DNA of 64,000 bases. Source: Altererythrobacter sp. KTW20L. GTDB taxonomy: Bacteria; Pseudomonadota; Alphaproteobacteria; Sphingomonadales; Sphingomonadaceae. Below the pieces are notes generated by a model that was not told the DNA's origin, did not search any database, and saw only the letters and a list, made by a program, of their open reading frames with translations. The stretch covers positions 1 through 64,000 of the forward strand of contig NZ_JAMFLH010000009.1 of assembly GCF_023501975.1 (NCBI RefSeq), read 5' to 3'. This document shows positions 31,192 through 34,736 of this stretch, in pieces. Each line of letters opens with the position of its first letter. Position 1 is the stretch's first letter. The translations under genes and the position numbers were made by a program.

Positions 31192-32244
31192 TCAGGCCGC
31201 CTCGCGCTCCTCTGCGCCTTCGCCCTTGCGGCGGCGGCGGCGCATGAACACTGTGGCCGCGCCTGCGCCAAACAGCAGCAGCATGCCCGGCTCCGGAACC
31301 GGCGTACCCGAGGTGGTCCCCGACGTGCCGCTTGTTCCCGAGGTACCGCTCGTACCCGAAGTGCCACTGGTCGAAGAACTGGTGCTCGTGCTGGTGGACG
31401 ACGAGGTGGAGGTGGAGGTGGAGGTGGAAGTCGATGTAGACGAGCTCGATGACGACGAAGTCGAAGAGCTGGAGCTTGTCGAGCTGGTCACATTGCCTGA
31501 CGATGTGCTGACCGATCCGGTGGAGGTCGAAACACTGCCCGTTGAGGTGCTGACCGAGCCTGTCGAGGTGGACACGCTGCCCGTCGAAGTCGAGACGTTG
31601 CCCGATGTGCTAGTAGTCGAGACCGAACCGGTCGAAGTCGAAACGCCGCCCGTGGTGGAGCTGGTCGAGGAGCCGCCGGTCGAAGTCGAGGTGGACGAAC
31701 CGCCGCTACCGCCCGACGAGGTCGAAGTGGACGAGCCTGTGCTCGAATTATCGATGTCGATATCGATGATGATATCGCCGCTCGATCCCGTGGTGCCGGA
31801 CGAGCCGCTGGTGGAAGTCGAAGTGGTGGTGGACAGGTTGACGTTGGCACCGCCCCCGCTGCCACCGAAGAAGCCGCCGAAGAACCCGCCACCGAAGCCG
31901 CCACCGAAACCGCCCGAACCGCCGATGATGATCGGCTGGCCGCCGCCGCCGCCGCGAATGCCGCTTTCCTGCGGCAGGGGCAGGGGAAGCGCGGGGAGAG
32001 CAAGCAGTTCAGGCTCTGGCTCCTGCTCGACTTCAATCACGCGGCGGATGCGGCGCGTTTCGCGCTCGGGGATGACGCGGGCTGCCGGACGGTCCTTTAC
32101 CAGGGTGAGTTCGGCTGCGTCCTTGTCGGACTTGAAGCCGACGACCGCTGCCTGCGGCTCTGCCAAGTGGACCGCGCCGCCTGCCGCAAGGGCAGTGCCC
32201 GCCGCAGCGGCCGACAATTTCGCAAGGGCCATTCTTACCGACAT
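31192..32244 (-). CDS. PEP-CTERM protein with Ser/Thr/Gly repeat region
   Basis: Exported protein of 350 aa. N-terminal signal segment (about 5-28), a short charged region, a Gly/Phe-rich patch (residues 108-133), then a very long Ser/Thr/Gly tract (about 138-314). The tract holds five near-identical SVSTSTG heptads (about 206-250) and six TSG triplets (about 293-310). The C-terminus is a sorting signal: VPEPG at 316-320, a hydrophobic helix, then RRRRRK. An extra acidic tail follows the basic run. Exosortase normally cleaves such signals; no exosortase gene lies in the window. The Ser/Thr tract is a likely glycosylation target. Repeats may vary in number between strains. Confidence 0.85.
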   Translation of the reverse strand: MSVRMALAKLSAAAAGTALAAGGAVHLAEPQAAVVGFKSDKDAAELTLVKDRPAARVIPERETRRIRRVIEVEQEPEPELLALPALPLPLPQESGIRGGGGGQPIIIGGSGGFGGGFGGGFFGGFFGGSGGGANVNLSTTTSTSTSGSSGTTGSSGDIIIDIDIDNSSTGSSTSTSSGGSGGSSTSTSTGGSSTSSTTGGVSTSTGSVSTTSTSGNVSTSTGSVSTSTGSVSTSTGSVSTSTGSVSTSSGNVTSSTSSSSSTSSSSSSSTSTSTSTSTSTSSSTSTSTSSSTSGTSGTSGTSGTSGTSGTTSGTPVPEPGMLLLFGAGAATVFMRRRRRKGEGAEEREAA

Positions 32245-32472: not shown

Positions 32473-33513
32473 TCATTTCGATGGATCGAACAGACCCGGC
32501 TGCGATCCTGTCGGCGAATCGGCGGGTGGATTGAGCCCAAGGTGCTTCCAGCCGCCTGCATTGAGGCACCTTCCGCGGGCTGTGCGGGCAATCAGGCCGA
32601 GCTGGATGAGGTAGGGTTCAATCACCTCCTCAACCGTGTCGCGCGGTTCGCTGAGGCCCGCTGCCAGTGTCTCCACCCCCACCGGCCCGCCCCTGTAGAT
32701 ATCGGCGATCATGGTGAGGTAGCGGCGGTCCATCGCATCGAGGCCAAGGCCGTCGATCTCCAGCCGGGTCAGCGCGGCATCGGCCACCTTGGCCGTCACC
32801 GTGCCATCGCCCGCCACATGGGCAAAGTCGCGCACGCGCCTGAGCAGCCGCCCGGCCACGCGCGGCGTGCCACGGCTGCGACGGGCCACCTCGCGCGCGC
32901 CCGCGCTATCCATGTCCATGCCGAGCAAGCCGGCCCCGCGCGTCACCACGCGCATCAGCTCGTCCTCGGTATAGAAGGTAAGGCGCACCGGGATGCCGAA
33001 CCGGTCGCGCAGCGGTGTGGTGAGCAGCCCTTGCCGCGTGGTCGCGCCCACCAGCGTGAACGGCGGCAGATCGATCCGGACAGACCGCGCCGATGGCCCC
33101 TCGCCGATGATCAGGTCCAGCGCGCGGTCCTCCATCGCCGGATAGAGCACCTCCTCCACCACCGGATTGAGGCGGTGGATCTCGTCGATAAAGAGCACGT
33201 CATGCGGGTCAAGGTTGGTCAGCAGCGCCGCCAGATCGCCCGCCTTGGCGATGACCGGGCCGCTGGTGGCGCGGAACCCCACACCCAGCTCCCGCGCCAC
33301 GATCTGCGCCAGCGTGGTCTTGCCAAGGCCTGGCGGCCCGAAGAACAGCACATGGTCGAGCGCTTCGGATCGGGAGCGGGCAGCCTCGATAAACACCCGC
33401 AGGTTCTCGCGCGCGGCCGCCTGTCCGACGAACTCGGCGAGCGTCTTGGGGCGCAAGGCTGCGTCAGGGTCCTCGGGGAGGCGCTGGGGGGTGAGGTCAG
33501 GGTTGGTGGTCAT
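32473..33513 (-). CDS. ruvB: Holliday junction branch migration ATPase RuvB
   Basis: AAA+ motor of 346 aa that drives branch migration with RuvA on recombination intermediates. Walker [13 protein letters not shown], Walker [12 protein letters not shown], sensor [18 protein letters not shown] and a C-terminal winged-helix DNA domain are visible. Normally ruvB follows ruvA directly; here a 405-base GIY-YIG element lies between (33541-33945). ruvC is not in the window. Upstream 32245-32472 separates it from the PEP-CTERM gene on the same strand. Confidence 0.97.
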
Positions 33514-33540
33514 ACCGGATTGATCCGATACCGCCCAATC

Positions 33541-33945
33541 CCGTCATGCTGAACTTGTTTCAGCATCCATCGCGCCGCAGGCACGGAGCCATGCCCCGTG
33601 AACGCGCGCCTTGCGTACACTTTCTTGCCAGAAAACCGTTTGGTGCGGTTTATATCGGCGTCACTTCCGATCTTGTCGCCCGCATATACCAGCACCGCAC
33701 GAGCGCCGTGCCTGGCTTTACCAGCCGTTATGCAGTCTATCGATTGGTCCATTTCGAGCAGTTCGACCGCATGGACGCGGCGATCGCCCGCGAGAAGCAG
33801 CTCAAGAACTGGCACAGGCAGTGGAAGGTGAACCTGATCCAGAGCGGAAATCCGGATTGGTACGATCTTGCCCCCGGTCTGGGTATTCCACCCCTTGCTC
33901 CGCGTGGACCGAGAAATGGATCCTGAAACAAGTTCAGGATGACGG
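33541..33945. mobile_element. Inverted-repeat-bounded element carrying a GIY-YIG gene
   Basis: Bases 33541-33570 and the reverse complement of 33916-33945 agree at 28 of 30 positions. Each arm is itself a hairpin: ATGCTGAA-CTTGT-TTCAGCAT on the left and ATCCTGAA-ACAAG-TTCAGGAT on the right. The two differences are a compensating base pair, so each arm keeps its own fold. The nuclease gene sits between, with its stop codon inside the right arm. The element splits ruvA from ruvB and is oriented against them. Inference: a REP/REPIN-like mobile unit with its own nuclease. Confidence 0.65.
33591..33926 (+). CDS. GIY-YIG nuclease-like protein
   Basis: Protein of 111 aa (start ATG 33591, MPRERAP; an upstream in-frame ATG at 33546 lies inside the repeat arm). 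Single GIY-YIG domain: the YIG half is intact (AVYIGVTSDLVARIYQHR with the conserved Arg), and the acidic residue sits in AAIAREKQLKNW. The first half reads CVHFLA where relatives have CVYILA, so the catalytic Tyr of the GIY motif is His here. Single-domain proteins of this kind are common in alphaproteobacteria; their role is unknown. Bounded by a 30-bp inverted repeat. Confidence 0.82.
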   Translation: MPRERAPCVHFLARKPFGAVYIGVTSDLVARIYQHRTSAVPGFTSRYAVYRLVHFEQFDRMDAAIAREKQLKNWHRQWKVNLIQSGNPDWYDLAPGLGIPPLAPRGPRNGS

Positions 33946-33967
33946 GGGCGGTTAAGGCTTAGGTAGT

Positions 33968-34570
33968 TCACCCCGCCGCCCTCCGCAGCGCCACGCGGAT
34001 CACATCGCCCTCGGCCGCGCCCTCGCCCAGTTCGGCAATCGCTGCAGCCACCGCGTTTGCCGCCACCAGCGGCTTGAAGCCGAGATTCTGCAGGGCGGAG
34101 ACGGCATCGGCGCTCGCCCCGCCCCTGGGCAAGGCAACCCCACCGCCAAGCGAACCGCCGCCGGGCAAGGCGCCCGCCTTGTCCTTCAGCTCATTCACAA
34201 TGCGCCCGGCCAGTTTCGGCCCCACGCCCTGCGCCCGCGCCACCGTGGCGGCATCGCCGCTGCCACAGGCATCGCGCAACTCGCTCAAGGACAGGGCAGA
34301 CAGCACCGCCAGCGCCATTTTCGAGCCCACGCCCTGCACCGTGGTGAGGAGGCGGAACCAGTCGCGTTCGTCCGCACTGGCGAAGCCGAGCAGGCGCATG
34401 TCGTTCTCGCTCACCTGCAGGTCGGTGAACAGCGTGCAGGCCTCGCCCACCATGCCAAGGGCGCTCAGCGTCTTGCTGGAGCAGTGGACCAGGTAGCCCA
34501 CGCCCTGAACGTCGATCACCGCCCAGTCCGCGCCGGTTTCGTCGAGCAGGCCCCGAAGTTTCGCAATCAT
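33968..34570 (-). CDS. ruvA: Holliday junction DNA-binding subunit RuvA
   Basis: Tetrameric junction-binding protein of 200 aa that loads RuvB. OB domain (1-65, [11 protein letters not shown] and VGYLVHC), HhH domain ([20 protein letters not shown] and [21 protein letters not shown]), Gly-rich linker, and C-terminal RuvB-contact domain ([11 protein letters not shown]). The frame is open far upstream to 35128, but that part is antisense to aroC. Its partner ruvB lies 455 bases downstream, beyond the GIY-YIG element. Confidence 0.96.
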
Positions 34571-34640: not shown

Positions 34641-34736
34641 ACGCTCGCAGAGGCGCAGAGGCATAGAGGAGAAAGGGCGATGACGCCTTCGGCGCTGCTC
34701 CCGCTTCCCTGCGCCTCTGTGCCTCTGCGAGCGCCA
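34641..34736. repeat. Inverted-repeat element between ruvA and aroC
   Basis: GCTCGCAGAGGCGCAGAGGC (34643-34662) is repeated in reverse complement at 34714-34733 with one mismatch, with about 50 bases between. The arms contain the direct word GCAGAGGC. The element fills most of the gap between the divergent ruvA and aroC starts, so it lies in their promoter region. It resembles a short non-autonomous palindromic repeat. Confidence 0.6.

Follow-up and report, generated by a model that had tools for sequence, protein, structure and literature searches.

Between ruvA and ruvB of the alphaproteobacterium Altererythrobacter sp. KTW20L lies a small GIY-YIG nuclease gene enclosed by two inverted hairpins, and this locus raises the question of whether the gene and its hairpins form a single mobile unit and, if so, of which kind. 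The window analysed here, 64,000 nucleotides of contig NZ_JAMFLH010000009.1, carries the unit at 33541–33945. A preliminary description had compared its layout with REPINs, paired and inverted repetitive extragenic palindromes (REPs), here with an enzyme of their own. We consider it likely that the unit is a GIY-YIG nuclease gene enclosed by two copies of the probable recognition hairpin of its own enzyme. The short arm pairs scattered elsewhere in the genome are non-autonomous, REPIN-like relatives of the gene unit, and the whole is probably a nuclease-REP system similar to that reported for the Ssn nucleases of Neisseria. The copy between ruvA and ruvB is an old, stable resident and not a recent arrival.

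The left arm hairpin (33542–33566, + strand) reads CGTC-ATGCTGAA-CTTGT-TTCAGCAT, with the CGTC tag at 33542–33545 followed by an 8-bp stem and the loop CTTGT. The right arm hairpin (33920–33944, − strand), CGTC-ATCCTGAA-CTTGT-TTCAGGAT, is an inverted copy of the left one. Direct reading bears out that the 30-nt ends (33541–33570 and 33916–33945) match each other, one of them inverted, at 28 of 30 positions, and that the two mismatches form a paired C/G swap in the stem, which compensates and keeps both hairpins; an 8-bp stem with a 5-nt loop is predicted for both arms by folding with DNA parameters. An inverted-repeat search of the window extends the pair to 33540–33589 and 33897–33946 (78% over 50 nt). 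The full arm spans approximately 48 nt, including about 20 nt inside the hairpin (consensus GCnGnnnGCGCGGAG) that are common to the gene units and the short pairs. This inner part occupies 33567–33589 (+) on the left and 33897–33919 (−) on the right, where it doubles as coding sequence for the C-terminal tail of the protein. The nuclease gene (33591–33926, +) encodes 111 residues, and its homologues begin at the position of ATG 33591, directly after the left arm. Since the start codon is immediately adjacent to the left arm, and the stem of the right arm contains the stop codon (TGA, 33924–33926), as had been noticed at the outset, the gene fills the whole space between the arms. The orientation against the ruvAB operon also holds, the gene being on the + strand and antiparallel to ruvA and ruvB, both on the − strand.

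Outside the left tag runs a G-poor tract (33534–33541, +) with a right counterpart at 33945–33952 (−). Among 87 units with a tag placeable on both sides, the F types of the genus being left out, the 8 nt outside the tags contain 7.5% G, compared with 32.7% at a distance of 50–500 nt, a background that includes coding DNA; simultaneously, a pyrimidine directly precedes the tag in 150 of 174 cases. This tract could be an unpaired foot read by the enzyme, or could reflect a preference for certain insertion spots. In 21 of the 87 units, where 10 would be expected, the two bases outside the tags agree in inverted orientation (reached in 0 of 1000 shuffles), and the true arms may extend two bases further than given here.

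The arms belong to a repeat family of the host genome, an assembly of 3.09 Mb in 35 contigs with 99.99% completeness. Allowing up to 3 mismatches, 22 arms were found in the host and none with a reversed-pattern control; chance is therefore not the source of the arms. They form 12 head-to-head pairs, counting one degenerate and one interrupted partner, of which ten are short (107–143 bp) and two are gene-bearing 403-bp units. Of the signs of mobility named in the preliminary description, further arm copies are present, with 20 additional arms in pairs, and many solo arms are not: none exists among the 22, the two apparent singles having the degenerate or interrupted partners just mentioned. The second gene-bearing unit (C30:17292-17694) has the same 378-nt hairpin spacing as the ruvAB unit, and their match to each other runs from one tag to the other with no more than one extra base (query 42–445 of 491). 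Scored against a profile of the short-pair arms, the inner 20 nt of three of the four gene-unit arms exceed all 10,000 shuffles, both window arms among them, and the fourth exceeds all but 35. Through these inner nucleotides common to both, the ends of the short pairs are the ends of the gene unit. In one short-pair arm (L029; G000:C3, around 2640–2664), the loop holds another small palindrome (AAATTCGCCATGAGCGAATTT), giving the impression that the REP has been entered by a palindromic element of a second kind.

Ends shared by gene units and short pairs, inner 20 nt included, would also suit a homing-like spread, in which the enzyme cuts a short pair and repair copies the gene unit in through the approximately 48 nt of arm homology, deletion reversing the process. 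Homing endonucleases do exist among GIY-YIG enzymes. However, the sites at which the enzyme would presumably cut are retained in the gene unit, while a homing gene abolishes its own target, and we regard this route as unlikely.

The repeats themselves fit the description of CGTC-2 REPs, as far as it is given in the portions consulted of Di Nocera, De Gregorio and Rocco (2013; PMC3733652). Each arm has a CGTC tag, an 8-bp stem starting with complementary A/T, a 5-nt loop and a CCA tail; furthermore, the repeats occur in many genomic copies, mainly as head-to-head dimers (heterodimers being common in CGTC-2), in an alphaproteobacterial host. The same portions describe CGTC REPs as mainly alphaproteobacterial, including dRS3 of Neisseria, which is equated with CGTC-1 REPs, and RPE-4 and RPE-6 of Rickettsia (PMC3733652). 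To this extent the arms are a described repeat class, and the earlier suggestion of an undescribed class of element does not apply to them. CGTC-2 is presented there as a class apparently without a dedicated transposase, and no transposase gene flanked by CGTC REPs had been found. Unlike that account, a GIY-YIG gene lies inside the arm pair here, and the same layout recurs in most of the homologues examined. The string 'GIY' is absent from the consulted text of PMC3733652, and GIY-YIG is unmentioned in that of PMC12306157 and PMC5082802. The literature search returned only PMC9465073 as joining 'GIY-YIG' with 'repetitive extragenic palindrom', which is no proof of novelty; in the part of it consulted, a GIY-YIG gene and a gene for a REP-associated tyrosine transposase (RAYT) are merely listed in a pangenome table.

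The 111-residue protein contains a GIY-YIG domain (PF01541, E 9.7e-12) and matches no NCBIfam family. Its GIY-YIG core is intact: Y21, G23, R31, H35, E68 and N87 are invariant across 16 sequences. These residues have catalytic roles in the GIY-YIG superfamily. The fold is predicted with good confidence, at a mean predicted local distance difference test (pLDDT) score of 87. A profile search against solved structures returned 1zg2 (E 1e-9), 1ywl (3.6e-6) and UvrC 1yd6 (0.0038), and 1zg2 was also the best fold match (E 3.6e-3), the fold matches being weak, with none at E ≤0.001; the best solved relatives are UPF0213, Slx1 and UvrC GIY-YIG proteins. In seven compared pairs, the ratio of nonsynonymous to synonymous differences (pN/pS) is 0.20–0.45, which shows purifying selection on the enzyme. 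Carriage by phages was considered and rejected, no match having been found among 50,697 phage records.

A reading frame of Neisseria gonorrhoeae with 54.7% identity over 77% of the query is situated amid 16 dRS3-like copies within 3.3 kb; we presume this frame to be Ssn itself. NZ_CP119140.1 and NZ_CP119142.1 are filed as N. gonorrhoeae plasmids, yet at about 2.17 Mb they are evidently chromosomes.

Flanking arms accompany the gene across a wide range of relatives. A protein search found a homologue in 29 of 40 genus genomes, and among the 72 of 79 genus matches examined, the flanking inverted repeats of 67 exceed all 100 shuffles. By our own sorting, six main hairpin types (A to F) occur among these homologues. 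Beyond the genus, the arms exceed all 40 shuffles at 88 of 107 loci, which comprise the best 80 of at least 545 confirmed relatives, the most similar and not a random draw, and 27 of 30 phylum loci, the other three being already counted among the 80; some of the named loci may coincide with genus genomes. One locus (L181), on the same contig as L033, is kept in the 107 and in the ruvAB counts below and is left out of the end and flank comparisons. A relative in Sinorhizobium meliloti is flanked by inverted hairpins exceeding all 100 shuffles, with a CCTC-like tag instead of CGTC. Among the loci passing this test are records with the labels Planctomycetes, Chloroflexi, Treponema and Candidatus Uhrbacteria; most of these are metagenome bins, in which the label of an individual contig may be incorrect. 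A profile search detected homologues in 185 of 299 phylum genomes, counted as protein matches alone and many of them weak.

Enzyme type and arm type are paired, and at the level of sequence this pairing is well supported. Mapping the arm types onto a tree of 72 proteins gives 15 changes; shuffled labels gave 48 on average, and in 0 of 200 shuffles was the number as small. Because the flanking arms are linked to the gene, this coupling is discounted in part, and unlinked arms were counted instead, with the two arms per unit removed, in 40 related genomes for types A, B, C and E. Genomes in which the cognate nuclease type is present have more unlinked arms for type A (p 6e-4) and type E (p 8e-4), both from a run without two of the ten C-type loci (L115 and L118), for type C with all ten C loci (p 9e-4) and, weakest, for type B (p 0.02–0.03); the genomes being related, these p values overstate independence.

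The ends of the unit are sharp where it sits at unrelated loci. Of 231 unit pairs with homology over the whole unit and unrelated flanks, 169 have both homology ends no more than 5 bp from the tags, compared with 49 of 227 pairs with related flanks; the former were selected for their unrelated flanks, a choice that itself makes ends close to the arms more likely, and derive from only 69 units, so they are not independent. Together with the second gene copy matching from tag to tag, this lends support to the REPIN-like layout with its own enzyme that was first proposed. It also bears on a simpler explanation, namely that the arms are ordinary bidirectional transcription terminators beside a small gene. 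Hairpins do stand at both gene ends, and several short pairs lie, by eye, directly downstream of long reading frames. However, the CGTC tag is conserved, the matching inverted pairs fall into six sequence types, a G-poor tract lies outside them, the unit ends at the tags at unrelated loci, and no T-run follows the arm stems in the window; terminators alone are, in our judgement, very improbable.

The second host copy is the sister of the ruvAB copy on the protein tree (support 100/96). It lies between genes that we take to be rplA and sthA, and none of the 9 relatives fetched has it next to rplA; in one of these (G006) the sthA side is visible as well. Similarly, the one short pair of the ten that was checked (C35:133032-133172) is absent from the orthologous gap in all 7 relatives with both neighbours read, out of 23 relatives' loci. 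By these sequence comparisons, the second copy and this short pair are lineage-specific. To that extent the suggested mobility is plausible; a recent insertion at ruvAB was rejected, the unit being found at the same junction across several genera.

At the ruvAB site, the left neighbour is ruvB (32473–33513, −) and the right neighbour is ruvA (about 33968–34570, −), names that we assume from the preliminary description, a RuvB search also having been run. The junction could be read in 37 of the 40 genus genomes (G015, G018 and G025 have no usable ruvB), and the unit is present in 10 of them including the host, that is, in 9 of 36 relatives and not in all; five gaps of 0–2 bp come from extended partial matches and are inexact. 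Together with the other arm copies, this incomplete distribution runs counter to the refuting case named in the preliminary description. Both type-A hairpins were found in 7 of these 10 units, always 378 nt apart. Among the best 80 of at least 545 relatives, 19 named loci carry the unit at ruvAB, in Novosphingobium, Erythrobacter, Porphyrobacter, Sphingobium and others. Empty ruvAB sites in relatives, which would have supported mobility, were looked for; no exact one was found, and the nine unit-less gaps inspected all hold other DNA. As most of these nine gaps hold a different and longer reading frame, the ruvA–ruvB junction looks like a tolerant insertion spot.

In the 19 named ruvAB loci, the gene is antiparallel to the operon in 14 and parallel in 5 (L187, L199, L207, L210 and L216, labelled Sphingobium, Sphingopyxis or Sphingomonas, where the gene beside ruvB shares its orientation). 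If the unit can invert in place between its arms, the parallel loci are readily accounted for. Such inversion may come about by recombination between the arms, and the orientation against the operon would then have no meaning of its own; separate insertions in two orientations would look alike, and we lean slightly away from inversion.

Long retention at ruvAB, in 10 of the 37 genus genomes and 19 of the 80 named loci, is also what a host-domesticated nuclease-repeat system would predict. There, the enzyme would act on the repeats and thereby tune DNA uptake, repair or mRNA 3′ ends; the repeats would have spread otherwise, by another transposase, replication slippage or gene conversion, and the gene would travel with the arms without driving them. 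Purifying selection on the enzyme, the presence of arms in genomes without the nuclease and the role in transformation reportedly played by Neisseria Ssn speak for such a system. The sharp unit ends at unrelated loci, the lineage-specific second gene copy and gene-bearing units of several types within one genome speak against it, as does the lack of a CGTC-flanked transposase gene in the consulted portions of PMC3733652, a transposase elsewhere in the host genome not having been looked for. We hold domestication to be a serious possibility, distinctly short of an even chance.

The favoured reading, a gene unit bounded by the hairpins of its own enzyme, implies a mechanism that we propose by analogy. 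The enzyme would bind and nick the hairpin in single-stranded DNA, as exposed during replication, repair or DNA uptake. We infer single-strand hairpin cutting from the N. gonorrhoeae frame amid dRS3-like copies, from the equation of dRS3 with CGTC-1 REPs in the text consulted, and from what is reported of Ssn. Such nicks may let arm-bounded pieces copy or insert elsewhere, at G-poor intergenic spots and without target duplication; that cutting would lead on to dispersal is a further step. The occurrence of the same hairpins in scattered pairs suggests that the enzyme is a partner maintaining or spreading such repeats. In its strongest form, the proposal would make the GIY-YIG nuclease the missing mobility enzyme of the CGTC REPs: a hydrolytic enzyme, neither HUH nor DDE, that nicks tagged hairpins and spreads gene units and short pairs as a distinct and widespread class of miniature mobile elements, arm type and enzyme changing together. 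We grant this stronger form somewhat less than an even chance.

Several observations weigh against these proposals, in addition to the selection and non-independence given above with the unit-pair counts and p values. The binding and cutting of the arms by the enzyme and the movement of the unit are both things that we infer, and GIY-YIG enzymes are, to our knowledge, not known as transposases. The arm test was failed by 5 of the 72 genus homologues and 19 of the 107 wider loci, including two ruvAB copies (L205 and L209). In 12 of the 72 genus pieces, an in-frame stop interrupts the matched stretch, and decay may thus have affected many copies. Between the two host copies, synonymous divergence (dS) is about 1.3 and pN/pS is 0.25; the duplication is therefore old, and both genes have been kept. 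No exact empty site could be aligned at ruvAB, at rplA–sthA or for the one short pair, the flanks of relatives at these sites being unalignable or filled with other DNA. Similarly, no direct repeat of 1–7 nt above shuffles, as expected of a target-site duplication, was found in the 87 units; a 4-nt duplication signal was an artefact of tag misplacement in F-type arms and was gone once those were excluded. Regarding the pairing, no homologue was found in one genome (G006) that carries 11 type-A arms, and another (G029) has 7 arms without the cognate nuclease. In G024, the ruvAB unit (L035, G024:C3:76016-76418) holds a clade-A enzyme between two identical type-B arms, while the genome as a whole has only three type-B arms and lacks type-A arms, possibly a natural switch of arm type.

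Two further features of the window lie near the unit. Between ruvA and the next gene, another inverted repeat (34642–34733) has 30-nt arms with 83% complementarity (CGCTCGCAGAGGCGCAGAGG...) and is not a CGTC arm. At 31192–32244 (−), a Ser/Thr/Gly-rich repeat protein ends in the tail VPEPGMLLLFGAGAATVFMRRRRRK, which is putatively PEP-CTERM-like.

The CGTC REPs had no enzyme assigned to them in 2013 (PMC3733652); this locus and its relatives suggest a single enzyme family as their partner. About six natural enzyme-hairpin pairs are available for specificity tests, and in G024 specificity may have switched naturally. Should the enzyme prove to move the repeats, its chemistry would be that of a mobile element and yet lie outside the HUH and DDE transposases; otherwise it may account for the retention of many tagged hairpins in genomes. 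In both cases, the question can be tested directly with short oligonucleotides and the 111-residue protein.

Among known systems, the UPF0213, Slx1 and UvrC proteins provide the best solved matches by profile and, weakly, by fold, and we know of no such GIY-YIG protein with flanking cognate repeats. In contrast to a classical insertion sequence or miniature inverted-repeat transposable element, the unit shows no target-site duplication. A homing endonuclease gene interrupts, and so protects, its own target, and the allele lacking the gene is cut; the presumed target arms are intact here on both sides. The likeness to REPIN/RAYT systems includes two inverted hairpins, short non-autonomous pairs and a gene-bearing version with related ends. 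However, the tag here is CGTC and not GTAG, and the flanked enzyme is a hydrolytic GIY-YIG nuclease and not a tyrosine transposase; no tyrosine transposase is flanked by the arms here, one elsewhere in the genome not having been looked for. Lacking these two features, the system falls outside REPIN/RAYT, which it would resemble in the way it works.

GIY-YIG enzymes act by hydrolysis, and a further parallel is Ssn, reportedly described by Chenal, Veyrier and colleagues in Nat Commun in 2025 as site-specific single-strand GIY-YIG nucleases acting on the Neisseria repeat NTS. A GIY-YIG enzyme with a conserved core and a cognate repeat in many copies is, on the reported description of Ssn, common to both. 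In N. gonorrhoeae, a dense repeat array surrounds the gene, whereas here a single arm stands on each side with the stop codon in the right one, and compact units of about 400 bp recur at unrelated loci. As far as we know, this REPIN-like gene-bearing form and its sharp-ended relocation extend the Ssn-like kind.
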